Assembly (NCBI GenBank): GCA_028280845.1
Contig: JANQKZ010000033.1
Location: forward strand, 62,001-126,000
Reading direction: 5' to 3'
Source of the DNA: Opitutales bacterium
GTDB taxonomy: Bacteria > Verrucomicrobiota > Verrucomicrobiia > Opitutales > JABSRG01
DNA length: 64,000 nucleotides
The stretch's first letter is position 1; every line of letters begins with the position of its first letter. The notes under the pieces are model-generated. The model saw only the letters and a list, made by a program, of their open reading frames with translations, was not told the origin of the DNA and did no database searches. Shown one piece after another: positions 8,088 through 27,395 of the stretch. A program made the translations under genes and the position numbers.

Positions 8088-8125
8088 AAACCCCTTCCGC
8101 TATGAGGTAAGCGGAAGGGGTTTTT
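8088..8125. terminator. Bidirectional intrinsic terminator between convergent genes
   Basis: CCCCTTCCGC (8091-8100) and GCGGAAGGGG (8111-8120) form a perfect 10-bp stem with a ten-base loop. It is preceded by AAAA and followed by TTTTT, so it can end transcription from both sides. It sits between the receptor (+) and the symporter (-). Confidence 0.85.
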
Positions 8126-17916: not shown

Positions 17917-18981
17917 TCAAAACCTGCGGACTACAATTAATTGTCCCCAAGAGTGGGTATCCGGCTGGCCTTCATTTTCCCGAGTACGGAAAACGTGTGA
18001 ATAACCAAAGCCCCACTGACGCCAGCGGACCGTAAAACCTCCTACCGCACTCCCTATAAACGTCTCGCTATTTACAGAACGGCTGTCCCTCCAGGTGTTG
18101 CCGTCCAGGAAAAGAGTCCTCGCCAGGAGGAGCCCCTCAAAACCAAAGTACCCACTCCAATCTAAACCCTGTGGTTGTTTGGTAAAATCCATCGGAATTT
18201 CAGGTCCCGGTCCAAACCGTTCTGTCGGGAAATAGTAAAGAGGCCCACTTTTTCCAAAACGTATCAAACTCCGTCCAACTAAGCCTATTTGAAGGTTGCC
18301 TAAATCCGCCCCGACCTCCACATCAATAATTCCAGGGTTTTCTAATCCCATATTTACTTCACCAACCCGGTGACGTTCACGATAATGCAGGTTAACCGTT
18401 GGTTCGTCGCTAAGTTGTTCACTCCAACTGTATTTAGGGTCATTGGTGATATCATGTACGATATCCTGAAGCTCTTTCCCCAATGCCGAAGGACCTACCC
18501 AACCAAGAGATAGGCCGATAGATCGAGATGTGTTTTCGGTTTTTTCACGAATCCATGCACCGCCTCCAATCCATCCTGCGTAAGGGCGGTCGAAGGGACC
18601 CAAGTCCACTTTTTCCGGATCATTGGGAGTGAATATTGAATGCCCAATGTAATATCCCCCGTTTACAATTCCATCTGTTCGAGGGAGTAGATTTTTTGCG
18701 AACTGGGAGACTTTTTGAGGAAAGAATCCAGGGGTTTCATGGGCAAATACTCGTGTAAGTCGAACCCCGCTGGAATAAAATTCATCTGTCCCAGAAAAGG
18801 AATCGTTATCCAGAGTAAACATTCTGATGGAACGTACTCCCTCAGGTTCGATCGCTTTGGCAAGGGCATGTTCTGGAAAAACTATGGTCAAAATGCATAA
18901 CTGGGGGAGTCCCCATTTCCAGACGGCCGCCCTGCTTTTTGTTTTTAGGGAAGTCTGAACACTAGAACTTATCCATTTCAT
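17917..18981 (-). CDS. LpxR-family lipid A 3'-O-deacylase-like outer-membrane protein
   Basis: A 354-residue protein with an N-terminal signal region ending around 'FPEHALAKA'. The mature start 'SIRMFTLDNDSFSGTDEFYS' followed by 'SGVRLTRVF', and the later 'GPFDRPYAGWIGGG', match the DUF2219/LpxR family. In that family an Asn-Asp pair near the mature N-terminus sits in the calcium-dependent active site. The body is a beta-barrel and ends 'GQLIVVRRF' with the terminal phenylalanine. The family removes the 3'-acyloxyacyl chain from lipid A at the cell surface. It is divergent from a TetR gene, with an operator-like palindrome between them, so it is probably TetR-controlled. A promoter with TTGACT and TATCAA boxes would place the transcript start almost on the ATG. 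Confidence 0.82.
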   Translation of the reverse strand: MKWISSSVQTSLKTKSRAAVWKWGLPQLCILTIVFPEHALAKAIEPEGVRSIRMFTLDNDSFSGTDEFYSSGVRLTRVFAHETPGFFPQKVSQFAKNLLPRTDGIVNGGYYIGHSIFTPNDPEKVDLGPFDRPYAGWIGGGAWIREKTENTSRSIGLSLGWVGPSALGKELQDIVHDITNDPKYSWSEQLSDEPTVNLHYRERHRVGEVNMGLENPGIIDVEVGADLGNLQIGLVGRSLIRFGKSGPLYYFPTERFGPGPEIPMDFTKQPQGLDWSGYFGFEGLLLARTLFLDGNTWRDSRSVNSETFIGSAVGGFTVRWRQWGFGYSHVFRTRENEGQPDTHSWGQLIVVRRF

Positions 18982-18985
18982 ATTA

Positions 18986-19018
18986 GTTTGATAATTTAGT
19001 TCGATAAATTAGTCAAAC
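18986..19018. promoter_or_regulatory. TetR operator-like palindrome overlapping the LpxR-like promoter
   Basis: GTTTGATAATTTA (18986-18998) faces TAAATTAGTCAAAC (19005-19018) across six bases, an inverted repeat with one bulged base. On the minus strand TTGACT (19016-19011) and TATCAA (18993-18988) are spaced 17 bases apart, a plausible sigma-70 promoter for the LpxR-like gene lying inside the palindrome. A repressor bound here would block it. The palindrome is 54 bases upstream of the divergent TetR start. Confidence 0.6.
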
Positions 19019-19072
19019 AAAAAGAAAAAAAATAGCTTGATCTAGTAAAATGTCTCTCAATGCTGTGGTTAA

Positions 19073-19702
19073 ATGGCAAAGAAAGGGCAAAAAACCGAAA
19101 CTGAACTCCGTCTCTTTGAAGCGGCCCTCCGGGTATTTGGGGATAAAGGGCACTATGGGGCGAACACTCAGGAGATAGCAGATCAGGCTCAAGTCACCAA
19201 AGCCTCCCTCCATTATTACTACCGGCACAAAGATGACCTCTACGAAGCCGCTTTTGAATACGCAATTGGAAAGGTATCGGAAAATCTCTACACTCACATC
19301 CAGGAGGGAATGAGCGCAGAAGAAACCCTACGTACATTCTGCGACCGTGTCATTCGATTTTATCACGATCATCCCTGGTTAATTAAAATGTTTATTCACG
19401 AATGTCTCAACGGCGGGAAAATCGGACGAGCATATATCGTGGAACTTGGCTTGGAGGAAGGAAAACCATTATCTCGCTTCATTGAGAATATTAACCGTGC
19501 AGTGGAAAGGGGAGAAATACGACCAGTGGACCCATATCAGCTTTTTTTTACTACCCTTGGTTCATGCGCTTTTCCCATCGTAACCCAGTCACTGTTTTCT
19601 TCGTTGTTTCCCGAATTGAGGGAAGATCCATCCGCTTTTTTATTGGCCCGGAGAGAGCATGTGTTTGAAACGATATATTTCGGGCTTACCCCTTCGAGTT
19701 AA
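19073..19702 (+). CDS. TetR-family regulator 1
   Basis: A 209-residue TetR/AcrR protein. The helix-turn-helix region is at about residues 25-55 ('GANTQEIADQAQVTKASLHY', then 'YYRHKDDLYEAAFEYAI'). The helical ligand domain that follows has 'PVDPYQLFFTTLGSCAFPI'. It is clearly paralogous to the TetR gene at 26113 ('GANTQEIAEGAKIAKASLHY', 'SVDPYQLFITTWSACLF'). It is divergent from the LpxR-like gene, whose promoter carries a matching palindrome. It most likely represses that gene and itself, with a hydrophobic or envelope-active compound as inducer. Confidence 0.92.
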   Translation: MAKKGQKTETELRLFEAALRVFGDKGHYGANTQEIADQAQVTKASLHYYYRHKDDLYEAAFEYAIGKVSENLYTHIQEGMSAEETLRTFCDRVIRFYHDHPWLIKMFIHECLNGGKIGRAYIVELGLEEGKPLSRFIENINRAVERGEIRPVDPYQLFFTTLGSCAFPIVTQSLFSSLFPELREDPSAFLLARREHVFETIYFGLTPSS

Positions 19703-19828: not shown

Positions 19829-21343
19829 TTATAAAGAGGCGATTTCGGTGATGGTTCCATCCCATCCTCCCCCCAGTGCTTTATAGAGGGATACCAACTC
19901 GATTAAGACACTTTGCTGGGCTTGAGACAAGGCACTCCGATTGGCAAGGTGCTGACGCTGGGCGTCTATGAGGTGGACGAGGCTGTCCTCGCCCGCCTCG
20001 TAGCGTATGGCAGCAAGGTTCGCGCTTGAATGGCTTGCCTGAACCGCTTCTTGGAGGAGCGTGGCACGGTCGCGTTCACCGGCGTAACGGGCCAGAGCCG
20101 TTTCTGCCTCCCGAAGGGCATTTAGGACGGAGTCTTCCCAGGAGAGGAAGGCGTTCTCTGCCTGAAGCTCGGCAAAATCCACTTGTTTGCGGAGTGCCCC
20201 TGCGTTGAAAATAGGCATGCGGATTTGAGGATTGATCAACCAGGTGCGGCTAACCCAATCCAAAAGATCATCCGATGCATTGCTGGCGAGTCCTGCCCGA
20301 CTAGTCAAAGAAACGGAGGGATACAATTCTGCGGTGGCTACCCCGATATTGGCCGTTGTTGCAGCGAGGTACCGCTCTGCTGAGATTACATCGGGCCTGC
20401 GCCTCAGGAGGTCAAAGGGTAGACCCACGCCGACTAATTCGGGTGGGGATGGCATGGGTTCTTCTCTAAGAAGACGGTCGAGGAGTTCTGCTGGTGGCTG
20501 ACCGGAAAGGTAGCTTAGCGCGTAGGCCGAGGCCGAAATCTGGGCCTCGAAAATAGGTAACCGGGCCCGGGTTTGCTTTAATTCAGCTTCTGCTCTGGCT
20601 ATTTCAAATTGATTCCCTTCTCCAACTTCGTTTCGCCAGATCGCTATGCGGAGTGTTTCTGCTTGTAACCGGATATTCTCTTTTGTGATTGCCAATTGGT
20701 TTTGACCCCCTCTGAGAAGGGCATATTGACGCCCTACTTCAGCTAATACTGATATCAATATCTCGCGTTGCGAAAATCCAATAGCCTCTAATTCCGCCGC
20801 TGCTGCTTCGACGGAACGGCGATTTTTGCCGAACAAATCTATCTCGTAACTGGCGTCAAATCCGGCTGAAAATGTGTTGTTCAACAGTTCGGGTTCTCCC
20901 CCGGGCAATACTTCATCAATCCCAGGGAGCAGGGGATTATTGGAACTCCTGCGATGCCGCTGGAAATCGGTGCTCGCATTTACCTTGGGAAAAAACACCG
21001 AGAAGGTAATTTCGTATTGGAGCCTTGCTTGCCGCACGTTGTTGAGGGCTATTTCCAGGCTACGGTTATGTTGAAGGGATTGATCAATCAAATCGGTAAG
21101 GCTGGGGTCTTTCAGGGCGTGCCACCATTCCTGCTCGACAAAATCCTCTGAAAATAGTGATTCGCTGGAAATCAGGTTCCTTTGTTCCGATGCAGACCAG
21201 GGAATTGCTTTGGCTGGACTTCCCGGCTGTTGGTAGTCCGGCCCTAAGGTGCAAGACGATAACAAAAGGGGGAAAAGGGATAGGATTATCCACATCCGGG
21301 AATAGCCTTTTGGTTTTCTGATGAAAGGTAATGACCTAAACAT
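19829..21343 (-). CDS. Outer-membrane efflux lipoprotein (OprM/NodT-type TolC homologue)
   Basis: A 504-residue protein with a lipoprotein signal ending L-L-S-S-C31, followed by 'TLGPDYQQPGSPA', the classical beginning of NodT/OprM outer-membrane factors. Two long helical repeats follow, with 'EIDLFGKNRRSVEAAAAELE', 'GLPFDLLRRRPDVISAERYL' and 'GEDSLVHLIDAQRQHLANRS'. It forms the trimeric channel that receives substrates from the RND pump. Its start overlaps the RND stop by eight bases, so it is the last gene of the adaptor-pump-channel operon. Normal length for the family. Confidence 0.94.
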   Translation of the reverse strand: MFRSLPFIRKPKGYSRMWIILSLFPLLLSSCTLGPDYQQPGSPAKAIPWSASEQRNLISSESLFSEDFVEQEWWHALKDPSLTDLIDQSLQHNRSLEIALNNVRQARLQYEITFSVFFPKVNASTDFQRHRRSSNNPLLPGIDEVLPGGEPELLNNTFSAGFDASYEIDLFGKNRRSVEAAAAELEAIGFSQREILISVLAEVGRQYALLRGGQNQLAITKENIRLQAETLRIAIWRNEVGEGNQFEIARAEAELKQTRARLPIFEAQISASAYALSYLSGQPPAELLDRLLREEPMPSPPELVGVGLPFDLLRRRPDVISAERYLAATTANIGVATAELYPSVSLTSRAGLASNASDDLLDWVSRTWLINPQIRMPIFNAGALRKQVDFAELQAENAFLSWEDSVLNALREAETALARYAGERDRATLLQEAVQASHSSANLAAIRYEAGEDSLVHLIDAQRQHLANRSALSQAQQSVLIELVSLYKALGGGWDGTITEIASL

Positions 21344-24300
21344 TGGGCACTTTCTCCCGAGGTTTAATATTAAAGAAGTAAGTGTAGAGAACGGGCACTA
21401 CTCCCAAGGTGAGAACCGTTCCCACAGCTAGGCCAACCGCAATTGCTGCCGCCATGCCATAAAATAAAACGTCCGTGAACACAATGAGCGGCAACAATCC
21501 TAAAACGGTGGTTGTGGTCGACATGATAATGGGGCGCAATCTGCGAACTGAGGCGGAGATCACTGCTTCCCAGGCGCCGCTTGAATCGCCTTCAGCCCGC
21601 TCGATGTCGATGCGGTCGATCAGGACAATGGCATTATTTGCCAGTATTCCGGCAAGGGCATAAAGCCCCAGGAGTACCATAAAACCAAATTGCGCCTGAA
21701 ACAGGTAAAGTCCAAGTACCGCCCCAATCAGCAGAAGGGGTAGGGTTATAAAAATGATCCCAGTCCGCCGAAAGGAATTAAATTGCCAGATCAGGGTGAT
21801 AAAAATCGCCCCGATGCAGGCGGGTAGGTATTTGGTGATAGCTGCCCGGGATTCAGCGGATTGCGCGACGACACCATCGTATTCAATTCTGTGGTTTAAC
21901 GGCAGTTCGTCGGCAATTTTCTGGATGTGTGGAGCAATGCGCTTTTGAAGTTCCTGAGCAGATATATTTGGATTTTTCGCTTGAACCGTAATCGTCCTCA
22001 TCAGGTTTTCCCGTTCCCGCTCGAGAAAGTCGGTCACAATTTCGATATCTGCTACCTGGACCAAAGGTATGTTTTCCTTTCGTGACTTTGAGTAGATGGG
22101 AATAGTACGAATCCGGTTCAAGTCATGCCGTTCATTATCCTTTGCTCGTAGAATTACCGGAAACAGTTCATCTCCCTCGCGGTACTCGGTTACCCGCTGG
22201 CCCGAGAAATACCGTTCCATGGCTAACGAAACATCCGTTGAGGAAACACCGGCCCGGCGCGCGCGGTCTTGGTCCACATTGATACGGAATCGAAAGTGGC
22301 GCCCCTCCCAATCATTGCGAATTTCAATTACATCTTCGGTCGCATATAATAAATTTTCAATGGTTAGGGCGGTTTGATAGAGCAACTCCGGATCGGGTCC
22401 TTTAACCTGGATATCAATGGTGGTAGGATCAATAGGGCCGAGAAACATTTTGGATACACGAGCCTCTACTTCAGGAAATGCGTATAGAATTTCTTCCCGT
22501 AATTTCTCAACCGTGGGGAGTACATATTTTAAGTCTTCAATATTAAGAACCATGAATCCTTTGTAAGTTGCAGGGTCAAAGGGAGACAAAGGGAGAACGA
22601 ATCGAGGGCCTCCAAAGCCCACATAGGCCACCCCACTTCTGATGTGGGGAAACCGATCCTGATTGAGGACAAAATCCAGCATATCCTTAACCGTTTTGTC
22701 AGTATGATCCATGGAGGCTGTGGGAGGAAGGTCGACATAAACTAAGATCTGCTCACGGTCTGATTCTGGAAAAAACTGTTGAGGCACATACCGCATACCG
22801 ACGACCGAGAGTAAAAGTAAAAGTACCATGGATCCAAGAAATACCAGACGGTGGCGCATTGTCCGGACCAGAAGCTGCCGGTAAGCCCCTCCCATGATTT
22901 CAAATATCCTGCCAGTTAAGTCTTTTTTTACTTTGGCGGACTCCCTAGCTCTGGCCGGAGCTTTGGCAAAGTAATAGCACAAGGTCGGGGTAACGGTAAG
23001 GGCAACAAACCAGGAGGTGGTCAGACTGATGAGGATTACCAGGGAAATGGATCGTGTGTATTCTCCTGAGATCGTTTCTGCCAACATCAGAGGAAGAAAG
23101 ACCAGGACTGTTGTCAGCGAGGAAGTGGCCAGTGGGATGGCCAATTCTTTTCCGCATTTGGCTAAAGCGTCATCCCGGGATGCGCCGTCCTCGAGTCTGC
23201 GAACAAAATCTTCCGCGATAACGATCCCGTTGTCCACGAGTAGCCCTAATGAGATTATCAGGGTGGCGAGGCTCATACGTTCGAGGTTGATCCCAGTAAA
23301 ATTCATCACGCTTAGGGTAATTAACATCACCGTGGGAACAATCGCCCCAACGATGAGGCCGGTGCGCATACCAAGGAAGAGGATTACCACGACAAGGACG
23401 ATCCCCAGGCTTTGAAGCACATTGACCGAAACACCATATACCGCGTTCTCGACTTGCTCTGCCTGGAAGGTTGCGAAATCAAGGGATACCCCGGGAGGCA
23501 GGGAACCTGCGATGGCATTCACCTTTGCCTTGGTTGCTGCTGAGAAATCGATTACATCCGACTCATCCATCATGGTAATGGAAAGAATAATTGCCGGTTT
23601 ACCGTTAAAATAGGCAGGTTGAAATCGGGGATCCACCGGACCTCGCCGGACCGTTAGCAGGTCTTGAAGGGGAATGAAATCTTCTTGTCCCGGTATCTGG
23701 ATGAGTGCTTCACGGAGTTCTTCAATCGATGAAAAATTCCCGGTTGGCTCAATTGGGATGGACCGGTTGCCACTGTCGACGGTTCCTCCTGGACGAATGA
23801 TGTTTTGGCTGGCCAGAAATCTTACTATTTCCTCCGGATCCAAGCCATAACTTGCCAGCCGCGTGGCCGAATATTCCATGAATATCCGTTCCTCTTGGAC
23901 TCCTAGAAGCTGGATTTCTTTCATTCCTTTTACCTCATACAGCAAGTCGCGTACATGCTGAGCGAGATCCAGTTTTTCTCCCCAATTATAGGATGGAGCA
24001 GTTAAGGCCAGGGTGATGACAGCGACATCACCAAAAGTGTCGTTTACTTGAGGAGGATGTGTTCCTTCCGGAAGTTCATCTCGTACCGTATCAATTTGCT
24101 GTCGTAAATCGTCCCAAATCTGATCCAGTTCGAAAAAGCGGTCGTAGGCTTCAACATGAATGATAGACATGCCCGGTAGGGAGGTGGATCGGATTTCCTC
24201 CACCTCCGGCATTTCAATAATGGCCTCCTCCAGCGTTTTTGTTATCAACAGCTCGACTCGCTCGGAGGGAAGCCCCGGATAGGCTGTGGTGATTACTGCT

Positions 24301-24437
24301 TCACGCATGGTAACTTTGGGATCTTCCCTGGCCTTCAACGTGAAATAGCTGATAACCCCGTAGACCATGAGGGCTCCCACTATAGCGAGAACCAGTCGTC
24401 GGTAACCAAATGCGATTTTGCTAATGCTCATGGTCAA
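21336..24437 (-). CDS. RND multidrug efflux pump with TriC-like proton-relay residues
   Basis: A 1033-residue inner-membrane RND transporter with the usual 12 helices and two large periplasmic loops. In TM4 the AcrB Asp-Asp pair is V-D402-N403 ('GLLVDNGIVIAED410'), and the TM10 lysine region reads 'LAGILANNAIVLIDRID', with Asn in place of Lys. This pattern is found in RND pumps of the TriC-like branch rather than AcrB itself. The pump exports hydrophobic compounds by proton antiport. The start could be the first or third codon (MTMSIS). It lies three bases after the adaptor gene and overlaps the channel gene. Confidence 0.94.
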   Translation of the reverse strand: MTMSISKIAFGYRRLVLAIVGALMVYGVISYFTLKAREDPKVTMREAVITTAYPGLPSERVELLITKTLEEAIIEMPEVEEIRSTSLPGMSIIHVEAYDRFFELDQIWDDLRQQIDTVRDELPEGTHPPQVNDTFGDVAVITLALTAPSYNWGEKLDLAQHVRDLLYEVKGMKEIQLLGVQEERIFMEYSATRLASYGLDPEEIVRFLASQNIIRPGGTVDSGNRSIPIEPTGNFSSIEELREALIQIPGQEDFIPLQDLLTVRRGPVDPRFQPAYFNGKPAIILSITMMDESDVIDFSAATKAKVNAIAGSLPPGVSLDFATFQAEQVENAVYGVSVNVLQSLGIVLVVVILFLGMRTGLIVGAIVPTVMLITLSVMNFTGINLERMSLATLIISLGLLVDNGIVIAEDFVRRLEDGASRDDALAKCGKELAIPLATSSLTTVLVFLPLMLAETISGEYTRSISLVILISLTTSWFVALTVTPTLCYYFAKAPARARESAKVKKDLTGRIFEIMGGAYRQLLVRTMRHRLVFLGSMVLLLLLSVVGMRYVPQQFFPESDREQILVYVDLPPTASMDHTDKTVKDMLDFVLNQDRFPHIRSGVAYVGFGGPRFVLPLSPFDPATYKGFMVLNIEDLKYVLPTVEKLREEILYAFPEVEARVSKMFLGPIDPTTIDIQVKGPDPELLYQTALTIENLLYATEDVIEIRNDWEGRHFRFRINVDQDRARRAGVSSTDVSLAMERYFSGQRVTEYREGDELFPVILRAKDNERHDLNRIRTIPIYSKSRKENIPLVQVADIEIVTDFLERERENLMRTITVQAKNPNISAQELQKRIAPHIQKIADELPLNHRIEYDGVVAQSAESRAAITKYLPACIGAIFITLIWQFNSFRRTGIIFITLPLLLIGAVLGLYLFQAQFGFMVLLGLYALAGILANNAIVLIDRIDIERAEGDSSGAWEAVISASVRRLRPIIMSTTTTVLGLLPLIVFTDVLFYGMAAAIAVGLAVGTVLTLGVVPVLYTYFFNIKPREKVPNV

Positions 24438-24440
24438 AGA

Positions 24441-25589
24441 TCAATCCTGCAGGGTTTGTATTCCCTCCCCGATGAGCTGTACCTGTTGACCGTCTCGCAG
24501 AAAGGCGGCGCCAGAGGTAATGACTTTATCGCCAGAGGACAGGTCGCCCTCAACAAAGGCGAAGCTCCCATTGAAATCAGCTATACTTACCTGATGGCGG
24601 TAGGCCACCCGCCCGTCCGAACTCACCAGGAAAATATAAGTGGTTCCCTGTTCTCCGGCTTGAATTGCACTGAGGGGTAAAGGGTAAATCGGGGTTTCAG
24701 CAGGAAGATAGTCTCCTGCGGAGGACTCCGTTAAGCTTTTATAGGGGAAGCGAAAAGCAACTTCTGCGGTCATCCCCGGGCGAAGACCCCGAACATGGTT
24801 TAAGATCCGAAGAACTACTGGAAATGCGTTAGCGGCTGTAGCCCGGCTACCCACTTCTGCTACTTCGACCGGGACGGATTGCACATCGACTCCCGGGAAA
24901 TGAACTTCATGTCTGGATCCAATACGGATTTCTCCGATTATGGTTTCTGGAACAAGAACCGAAACTTCCAACCCTCCATCACCTTGAATTTGAAACACAG
25001 GCTGTCCTGGCGAAACATTTTGGGAGGGTTCTACCATCCGTCGGCTGATGTGCCCGGAATAGGGTGCGGCCAAATTGGTGTCTTCCAGGTCTTCCAAGGC
25101 AATCTGTAAACGTGCCTCTGCAATCTCCACTTGATTGATCGTGCTTTCAAGGGCACTCTGAGCTGCATCAAATTGTTTTTGAGAGACCGCCCCTTCTTGA
25201 ACCAAAACCTTTTGGCGATTAAAGTCAGCCTGGACTTCATGCAATCTGGCTTGAGCTTGCAGCAACTCCCCCTTCCGCTGTCGAACTTGTAACTCAAAAG
25301 TATTTTTTTCCAGAGTAGCGAGAATTTGTCCGGGTTGAAACGATTCGCCCAATTCCAGATTGACCACTTCCACACTTCCTCCCACTTCGAAGCTGAGTGC
25401 GGTCATCTCGACCGGTTGCACGACACCGGATAAGTTCCGGGATATGCCTTGGTCTATTCTTTTCGCAGTGGTCCAATAGACGGGTTTGGGGATATCATCA
25501 AAGCTGTAGTCATCACTACGGCAGCCCATTAAAAAAAGAATGCCCGCCGCCATGATGGCACCAACTGTGTAGGTCTGATTGATTTTCAT
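24441..25589 (-). CDS. RND periplasmic adaptor (membrane fusion lipoprotein)
   Basis: A 382-residue adaptor with lipobox L-M-G-C23. Then the barrel-sandwich hybrid ('LSFEVGGSVEVVNLELGESF'), a coiled-coil hairpin ('RQRKGELLQAQARLHEVQAD') and 'TNLAAPYSGHISRRMVEPSQ', followed by beta-barrel and membrane-proximal domains. It links the RND pump to the outer-membrane channel. It is the first well-supported gene of the efflux operon. Its ATG overlaps the stop of the low-confidence leader frame (ATGA), and a strong intrinsic terminator lies about 85 bases upstream, pointing to regulated read-through. Confidence 0.94.
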   Translation of the reverse strand: MKINQTYTVGAIMAAGILFLMGCRSDDYSFDDIPKPVYWTTAKRIDQGISRNLSGVVQPVEMTALSFEVGGSVEVVNLELGESFQPGQILATLEKNTFELQVRQRKGELLQAQARLHEVQADFNRQKVLVQEGAVSQKQFDAAQSALESTINQVEIAEARLQIALEDLEDTNLAAPYSGHISRRMVEPSQNVSPGQPVFQIQGDGGLEVSVLVPETIIGEIRIGSRHEVHFPGVDVQSVPVEVAEVGSRATAANAFPVVLRILNHVRGLRPGMTAEVAFRFPYKSLTESSAGDYLPAETPIYPLPLSAIQAGEQGTTYIFLVSSDGRVAYRHQVSIADFNGSFAFVEGDLSSGDKVITSGAAFLRDGQQVQLIGEGIQTLQD

Positions 25590-25969
25590 GAGGATGTGGT
25601 ATTAAGGGGGTTGAGGAAGGCCCCCGAATGGATTGTGTTGGGTAGGCTGGGGTCTCCTGCATTTATTTGATGGAAGGAAAAAGTGGCGGCCCCGTGCCCG
25701 GGGCCGCCACAGGCGAATGCGCTTGTTGCTTCCAACCGTTCGCCGATCTCCCTTTTCTGTTGTTTTCTTAACAGCAGGATTCCGTGGTAATCGCTTGGGG
25801 GAGTATTTCTCCTTTTCAGCTTACTATTTCCTTCTCTTTTGCCTGGCGAACCCAGTGCCAGCGAAAAATTTGCCCCATGAGAACGGCCTAACGCATGCCG
25901 AATGCGCTCTGGCACCACCATGGGGATCGGCTGCATTCGATGGATAGACCTGCTTCTCTTGTTGTTCAT
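25586..25969 (-). CDS. Possible leader ORF of the efflux operon
   Basis: A 127-residue frame from ATG 25969 to a stop overlapping the adaptor start by four bases. The protein (MNNKRSRSIHRMQPIPMVVP...) is basic, low in structure and matches nothing recognised. It runs straight through a GC-rich terminator hairpin, so its composition is partly dictated by that structure. A candidate promoter puts the transcript start next to its ATG. It could be a leaderless leader peptide whose translation opens the hairpin, or simply an accidental open frame in an RNA leader. Confidence 0.25.
   Translation of the reverse strand: MNNKRSRSIHRMQPIPMVVPERIRHALGRSHGANFSLALGSPGKREGNSKLKRRNTPPSDYHGILLLRKQQKREIGERLEATSAFACGGPGHGAATFSFHQINAGDPSLPNTIHSGAFLNPLNTTSS
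25675..25710 (-). terminator. Strong intrinsic terminator inside the efflux operon leader (attenuator candidate)
   Basis: GTGGCGGCCCCG and CGGGGCCGCCAC form a perfect 12-bp stem with a four-base loop; on the minus strand TTTTTCC follows at once (A-run at 25678-25682 on the plus strand). It stands about 85 bases before the adaptor start codon and about 260 bases after the likely transcript start. Upstream in the leader are further complementary segments, including CCCCATG/CATGGGG ahead of an ATTTTT run and CGCAT/ATGCG. This arrangement suggests premature termination as a control step. Confidence 0.8.
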
Positions 25970-25976
25970 GAAGGAT

Positions 25977-26013
25977 AAATTATGTTATTTAACTTTTTAG
26001 TCAAATAAAAAAG
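25977..26013. promoter_or_regulatory. Promoter and candidate TetR site for the efflux operon
   Basis: On the minus strand TTGACT (26004-25999) and TAATTT (25982-25977) are 16 bases apart and can drive the efflux operon. The plus-strand stretch TTAGTCAAATAAAAAAG (25997-26013) closely matches TTAGTCAAACAAAAAG at 19009-19024 in the other TetR-controlled intergenic region. TTATTTAAC and GTCAAATAA form a near-palindrome around it. It lies between the efflux genes and the divergent TetR 2. Confidence 0.5.
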
Positions 26014-26112
26014 TTTGATTTTTATTGCAATTCAACTAAATCCTTGCTGTTCTGAATCCAGATCCAAGCAGGGAAGAGGATGGTTGGAAGTGGTCCTCAG
26101 GATGGATAGCTT

Positions 26113-26736
26113 ATGAATCAGTTAATCGAGAAAACGGACGCCGAAAAACGGCTATTTGAGTCGGCCCTACAAGTGTTTGCTGCGAAAGGGCTATACGGAG
26201 CAAACACCCAAGAAATTGCTGAGGGGGCGAAGATCGCCAAAGCCTCCTTGCATTACTATTACCGGAGAAAGGAGCGGCTCTATTACGAGGCCTTCGGTTA
26301 TGCCATAAACCAGATTGCAATAGACCTGATGAAGTCCATTCACCCAGGTAAGAGTTTCGCCATTACCCTCCAAAGATTTTGTGATACTTCTATCGATTTC
26401 TATTGGGAGAAGCCGCATATTTTGAAGTTATTTGTCCAGGAATCATTAAACGGGGGTGAGGTTGCGGCCTCCCACTTGAGACGATTGGCAGAACGGAAAA
26501 TAAATCCAATTGGGTTGTTTATCAAAAACACCCAACGTGCCGTGGATAAGGGGGAAATCCAGTCCGTGGATCCTTATCAGCTTTTTATTACAACGTGGAG
26601 TGCTTGTTTATTCATCACCGTGGCTTCTCCCATTGTCACTGAGATCGTTCCGATCATGAAAAAGGAACCCCAAGAATTTATCCGTGCCCGAAAAAAACAT
26701 ATATTTCAAGTCATCTACCATGGCGTGGTGACATAG
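26113..26736 (+). CDS. TetR-family regulator 2
   Basis: A 207-residue TetR protein with the helix-turn-helix 'GANTQEIAEGAKIAKASLHY' followed by 'YYRRKERLYYEAFGYAI', and a C-terminal ligand domain with 'VDPYQLFITTWSACLFITVA'. It is the closest relative of TetR 1 in the window. It is divergent from the adaptor-RND-channel operon, the standard placement of an efflux repressor. The intergenic motif shared with the TetR 1/LpxR-like region suggests the two paralogues may recognise overlapping sites. Confidence 0.92.
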   Translation: MNQLIEKTDAEKRLFESALQVFAAKGLYGANTQEIAEGAKIAKASLHYYYRRKERLYYEAFGYAINQIAIDLMKSIHPGKSFAITLQRFCDTSIDFYWEKPHILKLFVQESLNGGEVAASHLRRLAERKINPIGLFIKNTQRAVDKGEIQSVDPYQLFITTWSACLFITVASPIVTEIVPIMKKEPQEFIRARKKHIFQVIYHGVVT

Positions 26737-26765: not shown

Positions 26766-27395
26766 ATGAGAAAATCAGCCCACCGAGCTTTAATCCAGGC
26801 AGCCATCGATTTAGGCTGCCGGAACTATGGTCCCCCTACCGTCCGTGAACTGGCCGAACACGCCAAGGTCACTCCCGCAGCAATCAATTATCATTTTCGC
26901 AGTAAGGAAGCCCTTCAGCGGGAGGCTTGGATCTATTGTGTGAAACAGGTATCAGCTCCCTTGGAAGGGCTCAAGAGCGATGCATCAGCCTATACAGCAA
27001 TCTCTATGTTATGCCAACGCATCATCGGGCTTTCAAAAGACCGCCCCGAATTATTGCGATTTATCCTGAGAGAAAACCTGGATTCAGAAAGTATGGATCC
27101 CCAAATTGCTCAAGAACTTTATGGGAATCCACATTCCTCCTGGTCACAATTCGCGAAAGTCATCCGAGTTGCCATCATTCGAGGGGAGATCCGGCAAATT
27201 GATCCCTATCACCTCCTGTTATATATTTTGGGCGCAATTCTTTTTCCATTCCAAATCAGGCAAACTGCCGCTGCGGTAATTCCTCACTTCCGGGGAAACC
27301 CGGAAACCTTTTGCGATTCCCATGCACGCTTTGTCATAACTAGCGTGGAATCGATTTTGAACCCTAACTTTGCGGTAGAACCCAGTGTGTTTTGA
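26766..27395 (+). CDS. TetR-family regulator 3
   Basis: A 209-residue TetR/AcrR-type protein, 29 bases after TetR 2. The DNA-binding region reads 'TVRELAEHAKVTPAAINYHF', then 'RSKEALQREAWIYCV'. The C-terminal part carries 'QIDPYHLLLYILGAILFPF', equivalent to the VDPYQLFFTT region of the other two, so all three share an origin, although this one is the most divergent. It is probably co-transcribed with TetR 2 and with the potassium channel, whose GTG start overlaps its 3' end by 11 bases. Confidence 0.9.
   Translation: MRKSAHRALIQAAIDLGCRNYGPPTVRELAEHAKVTPAAINYHFRSKEALQREAWIYCVKQVSAPLEGLKSDASAYTAISMLCQRIIGLSKDRPELLRFILRENLDSESMDPQIAQELYGNPHSSWSQFAKVIRVAIIRGEIRQIDPYHLLLYILGAILFPFQIRQTAAAVIPHFRGNPETFCDSHARFVITSVESILNPNFAVEPSVF

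Follow-up and report, generated by a model that had tools for sequence, protein, structure and literature searches.

A strong intrinsic terminator within an open leader frame precedes an RND efflux operon of an Opitutales bacterium and suggests possible translation-coupled attenuation

In the 64,000-nucleotide window analyzed here, a single stretch of an Opitutales genome to which all unprefixed coordinates refer, an RND efflux operon is preceded by a leader that carries an unusually strong intrinsic terminator. The terminator lies inside a 127-codon open reading frame whose end overlaps the start of the first efflux gene, and the leader is preceded in turn by a promoter that a TetR-family repressor would control. 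Taken together, these elements lead us to propose, as a possible reading that falls somewhat short of probable, that the operon is governed by TetR-gated, translation-coupled attenuation.

The efflux operon occupies the minus strand and encodes an RND efflux periplasmic adaptor (24441-25589; a lipoprotein of the HlyD/MFP family matching TIGR01730 at 1.3e-63 as well as PF13437 and PF16576), an RND efflux permease (21336-24437; PF00873, 1.1e-159) and an outer-membrane efflux channel of the NodT/TolC type (19829-21343; TIGR01845, 3.7e-105). Divergent from it on the plus strand lies TetR1 (26113-26736; PF00440 and PF17938), a TetR-family regulator and the probable repressor of the pump promoter. 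Adaptor, permease, outer-membrane channel and divergent TetR gene together constitute the layout of a TetR-regulated RND efflux operon, with 523 nt separating TetR1 from the adaptor. Past the distal end of the operon are TetR2 (19073-19702, plus strand), a paralogous TetR-family regulator 47% identical to TetR1, and an LpxR-like gene (17917-18981, minus strand; PF09982, 6.3e-66). Directly after TetR1 follows a third TetR-family gene (26766-27395, plus strand), which a genome search places at 24% identity to TetR1.

The hairpin at the center of this leader reads GTGGCGGCCCCG-GGCA-CGGGGCCGCCAC on the minus strand from 25710 to 25683 and is followed by TTTTTCCTTC. Its stem comprises 12 perfect base pairs, 11 of them GC, closed by a 4-nt loop, with a folding energy of -29.3 kcal/mol; the T tract TTTTT (25678-25682, minus strand) is similar to the T tracts found at gene-end terminators elsewhere in the genome. 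Positions 25710-25678 therefore present the GC-rich stem and T tract by which an intrinsic terminator is recognized. The perfect stem and TTTTT of the initial annotation are thereby confirmed, and 88 nt separate the end of the T run from the adaptor ATG (25589). Given that the plus strand of the hairpin has no T tract, the element acts leftward only, and a bidirectional reading was rejected. A bidirectional terminator does occur elsewhere in the window, at 8091-8120, where a perfect 11-bp stem is flanked by T tracts on both strands.

Hairpins of this quality are rare in the genome. We counted perfect stems of at least 8 bp with at least 70% GC and TTTT within one base in 864 kb of the same 4.79-Mb genome (C6, C55, C17, C22, C39 and the C18 window), which yields 19 hairpins, the one at 25710-25683 being both the longest and the most stable. 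Six Markov resamplings of the same 864 kb contain no comparable hairpin. Thirteen of the 19 come after a same-strand gene, as terminators should, and only two lie between a divergent upstream gene and a same-strand downstream gene. The gene that neighbors the leader points away from the hairpin, which rules out its being the terminator of an upstream gene. A mobile or repeated element was likewise rejected, since the hairpin occurs once in the genome and the next-best match has 3 mismatches, and the viral contigs searched do not contain it. Its rarity, strength, position and non-repeat nature thus mark it as a genuine terminator, though unusually placed, and we regard the terminator at 25710-25678 as almost certainly real. 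On the minus strand of another contig, between divergent genes, a further strong terminator holds a leader position (L098:16052-16073, G000:C39), ~310 nt ahead of a 133-aa ORF; it shows a weak, sub-threshold match to the small RNA RcsR1 (18 bits against a cut-off of 60).

The AT-rich promoter region at 25986-26045 (18% GC) separates the TetR1 gene from the efflux operon. The best minus-strand two-box score in 25561-26140 belongs to TTGACT - 16 nt - TAATTT (25977-26004), the predicted efflux promoter. Its -10 box, TAATTT, is weak (3/6 matches), and its score of 5.05 is ordinary, near the 60th percentile of the best scores in random 580-nt pieces; the location of the promoter accordingly rests on a shared motif and not on the score. 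Exactly two copies of the 18-bp pattern TTTTTRTTTGACTAAWWW are present in the 4.79-Mb genome, one at 25994-26011 and one at 19006-19023, and they adjoin the paralogous genes TetR1 and TetR2, respectively. With one mismatch allowed, 0.01 occurrences of the motif would be expected in the window. The copy at the pump promoter, TTTTTATTTGACTAAAAA (25994-26011, minus strand), covers the -35 region including its hexamer TTGACT, and an inverted repeat, AACTTTTT-N9-AAAAAGTT (25991-26015), overlaps it. On the strength of this sharing we designate it a probable TetR-family operator; its features would suit binding by a TetR-family repressor, which is the probable ligand of the motif. The TTTTTRTTTGACTAAWWW pair would then probably define a two-promoter regulon that links lipid A modification (LpxR) and efflux.

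Both copies of the motif also share their distance to a start codon. Counted from the first base of TTGACT, an ATG follows after 35 nt in each case, namely ATG 25969 in the leader and the start of the LpxR gene. As this is the spacing of leaderless genes, the transcript would start at the AUG, and we predict that transcription begins on the A of ATG 25969 or on the base preceding it (25969-25970, minus strand). The distance from the -10 box to ATG 25969 is 7 nt, one more than the genome peak at 6 nt. Among 87 intergenic two-box promoters in the genome sample, nine have an ATG 6 nt after the -10 box against ~1.5 per position, and 15 have one at 5-7 nt. Ahead of gene starts in the sample, TAnnnT peaks at -12/-11 and TTGAN at -35/-34, and the Shine-Dalgarno signal of the genome is weak. 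These patterns are a statistical sign of a leaderless transcript class across the genome. Some Verrucomicrobia are listed among organisms with scarce Shine-Dalgarno interactions (PMC10783764). The absence of a Shine-Dalgarno sequence at the adaptor is uninformative, since the genome makes little use of it.

The initial annotation placed the terminator far downstream of the likely promoter, and the predicted promoter indeed lies ~290 nt upstream of it. Downstream of 25675, where a main promoter would have spoken against that account, none is apparent: the stretch from hairpin to adaptor (25590-25690) holds no promoter-like sequence, its best score of 0.7 ranking roughly in the bottom 10% of random 101-nt pieces. 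A strong terminator, an only credible promoter ~290 nt upstream and the lack of any promoter-like site between hairpin and adaptor together make premature termination well supported, and the sequence leads us to expect with good confidence that it happens in the leader in vivo.

The open frame that crosses the hairpin and overlaps the adaptor start, another feature of the initial annotation, is confirmed. It runs on the minus strand from ATG 25969 to the TGA at 25588-25586 (127 codons, 25586-25969) and meets the adaptor start in an ATGA overlap. The hairpin corresponds to codons 87-96, leaving ~260 nt of frame ahead of it. In dinucleotide shuffles the openness of the leader frame itself arises by chance in 2.1% of cases, and that of any frame in 6.3%. 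Its codon usage is non-coding under genome-wide and local models alike, its GC content by codon position is flat (0.52/0.51/0.56 vs 0.59/0.41/0.63 in genes), it matches no Pfam or NCBIfam family, and it has no relative in the one genome of the same family. An ordinary protein gene was rejected on the grounds of the codon usage, the missing family and the missing relative; if translated, the frame more probably serves regulation than encodes a conserved protein. As to translation itself, the leaderless spacing speaks for it and the codon usage against it. On a transcript terminated at the T tract the frame would have no stop codon, and trans-translation would be expected for that reason. The leader also contains a 20-codon frame with two Trp codons, MGQIFRWHWVRQAKEKEIVS (25878-25816, minus strand), a possible leader peptide, which stops ~105 nt ahead of the terminator.

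The structured leader first described is not confirmed. The RNA upstream of the hairpin folds like its shuffles, with z = -0.98 for 25985-25711 and z = -0.78 for 25970-25711, and the whole-leader value of -2.3 is due to the terminator hairpin. The complementary segments of the initial annotation do exist (CCCCATG at 25925 with CATGGGG at 25879; CGCAT at 25906 and 25721 with ATGCG at 25896), as do crossing or mutually exclusive 7-bp complementarities (CGAATGC with two copies of GCATTCG; GTTCGCC with GGCGAAC), but the excess of alternative helices they belong to is marginal. The leader has 6 helices of at least 7 bp against 1.4 in shuffles, a number reached by 1% of random genome pieces. Once helices are weighted by stacking energy, the leader ranks in the top 3-35% of GC-matched pieces and the top 8-35% of intergenic pieces, which weakens the significance of the alternative folds. 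The 5' arm of the terminator pairs upstream over 9.2 nt vs 8.1 nt expected, a value matched in 43 of 200 shuffled leaders; by this measure the leader contains no antiterminator above chance, and forbidding the terminator hairpin costs ~33 kcal/mol. A search of the leader with the Rfam 15 covariance models gives no hit at the gathering score and none below E 0.8, and a known RNA family, whether riboswitch or other cis-regulatory RNA, was rejected. Immediately before the terminator, the minimum-energy fold places a small hairpin, GGCGAA...UUCGCC (25712-25744, minus strand). In addition, GAAGGAAA (25834-25827, minus strand) is complementary to TTTCCTTC (25680-25673, minus strand), which lies over and beyond the T tract; this pairing could form only after the termination decision.

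The mechanism that we propose is a two-stage switch, assembled from parts read directly in the DNA, namely a terminator, a promoter/operator motif shared with the LpxR gene, an ATG at leaderless spacing and a frame that stays open up to its ATGA overlap with the adaptor. In its first stage, the TetR-family repressor encoded at 26113-26736 would act on the operator at the -35 box. In its second stage, transcription from ~25970 would meet the terminator and by default release an RNA of ~290 nt. The transcript, probably starting at or next to the AUG and hence leaderless, would open the 127-codon frame to ribosomes; a ribosome following close behind the polymerase would occupy the 5' arm and keep the hairpin from forming, which would permit read-through, and the ATGA overlap would then pass ribosomes on to the adaptor by translational coupling. 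If the pump is made, the hairpin must be suppressed, and the only visible means of doing so is the frame that runs through it. In E. coli, a trailing ribosome suppresses intrinsic terminators that lie late in a coding region but not those within its first 100 bp (PMC4824070). Suppressing a hairpin of 12 bp is difficult, and coupling by itself may not suffice. The attenuation originally suggested, by RNA structure, ligand or leader translation, thus survives in part: premature termination stands, and the leader-translation branch gains from the leaderless spacing common to the LpxR promoter and from the frame through the hairpin, whereas the branch of RNA structure or ligand gains nothing, given the missing Rfam match, the ordinary folding energy and the lack of an antiterminator above chance. 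In a more specific and quite unlikely version, the leaderless frame would itself be the sensor, such that only ribosomes starting on leaderless mRNA carry the polymerase past the terminator and turn the pump on. Were this so, efflux would respond to the condition of the translation apparatus, including initiation-factor ratios and ribosome-targeting drugs.

The leader and the pump stand apart from those of related genomes. No homologous leader was found among the 52 nearest genomes, 372 genomes of the order and 387 of the phylum, in a wider contig scan or in plasmids, and the same three sets of genomes contain no close relative of the adaptor or the permease. Elsewhere, the best-matching adaptors, from Colwellia and a Chromatiaceae bin, are 37-38% identical, and the best-matching permeases 52-53% identical. 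Regulator and adaptor are 163-183 nt apart in two Colwellia loci, vs 523 nt here, and the loci of the nearest adaptors contain no protein match to TetR1 or TetR2.

This isolation bears on one rival explanation, in which the terminator is a constitutive brake on basal pump expression behind the TetR promoter, or the relic of a lost gene, and no regulated antitermination takes place. An operon without a close homologue in the phylum sample may have been transferred, its leader may be a recent junction, and no antiterminator is visible; the 12-bp stem without a mismatch and the intact T tract show no decay, however, and the frame crosses the hairpin to an exact ATGA overlap, so that we hold this explanation to be unlikely. 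Comparable in probability is the view that the ~290-nt RNA is itself the product, either a TetR-controlled small RNA or an unrecognized small-protein mRNA, with expression of the pump left to incomplete termination or to a weak promoter close to its start. A promoter and a strong terminator ~290 nt apart are the anatomy of a small RNA gene, the predominance of same-strand genes before strong terminators (13/19 in 864 kb) agrees with it, and the other leader-position terminator, at C39:16052-16073, has its small RNA-like match, albeit one far under the cut-off. Against this stand the absence of an Rfam family, upstream RNA that is not unusually structured, a codon usage at odds with a normal small protein and a stretch past the hairpin that holds no promoter-like site.

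A ligand- or protein-responsive RNA switch, with alternative folds of 25970-25711 governing hairpin formation, appears less probable still. The crossing 7-bp complementarities and the helix count (6 of at least 7 bp vs 1.4 in shuffles) are what such a switch would draw upon, but the folding energy is ordinary (z -0.98), upstream pairing of the 5' arm is within chance (43/200 shuffles), loss of the hairpin would have to be paid for with ~33 kcal/mol, the energy-weighted helix excess reaches only the top 3-35%, and Rfam gives no match even at E 0.5.

Several known systems resemble translation-coupled attenuation as proposed here. The pyrL leader frame of E. coli has 44 codons. In pyrBI/pyrL, a closely coupled ribosome prevents formation of the terminator hairpin, an effect used in regulation (PMC5021804). 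Both leaders place an intrinsic terminator inside a leader frame, translated in the case of pyrL, upstream of the first gene. Unlike pyrL, which responds to UTP, the frame described here has 127 codons, is probably leaderless, overlaps the first gene and has unusual codon usage. Control of efflux by leader translation and termination is exemplified by PA5471.1, upstream of armZ in mexXY regulation. Antibiotic-responsive attenuators with erm/ABC-F leader peptides likewise place resistance functions under leader translation and termination (reviewed in PMC5418344). The efflux function and the proposed roles of leader translation and termination are shared with these leaders; in contrast to their short leader peptides and competing hairpins, the present leader has no antiterminator above chance, and its 20-codon frame lies 105 nt off the terminator. 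The mdtU-mdtJI spermidine exporter of E. coli starts transcription 278 nt upstream and combines a uORF with premature Rho-dependent termination (PMC7815308). It and the present operon both encode exporters behind a long 5' leader that contains a uORF, and premature termination, predicted for the present operon, would be a further shared trait, but the mdtU uORF is conserved and termination there depends on Rho, whereas the terminator here is intrinsic and the uORF has no known relative. With RND operons of the AcrR/MtrR type, the present one has in common the divergent TetR-family gene and a putative operator over the promoter; it departs from them in that TetR1 scores far below the cut-offs of named efflux-repressor models, MtrR for example, and in the extra 381-nt stretch from predicted transcript start to adaptor, with a terminator inside.

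To our knowledge, no described attenuator has a leaderless uORF joined to the first gene by an ATGA overlap. Measured against open-access full texts, each part of the arrangement is known, and the combination of a probable leaderless frame, a strong internal terminator, an ATGA overlap with an RND adaptor and TetR gating is at most a variant of translation-coupled attenuation. If one of the rival explanations is true, the locus would be an example of an ordinary brake or of a small RNA under TetR control. If translation-coupled attenuation is true, an environmental RND pump would stand under two layers of control, a TetR repressor and a translation-dependent terminator. The leader would then be a simple reporter of coupling on leaderless mRNAs, and expression of the pump would track the coupling of ribosome and polymerase in a lineage with scarce Shine-Dalgarno signals.
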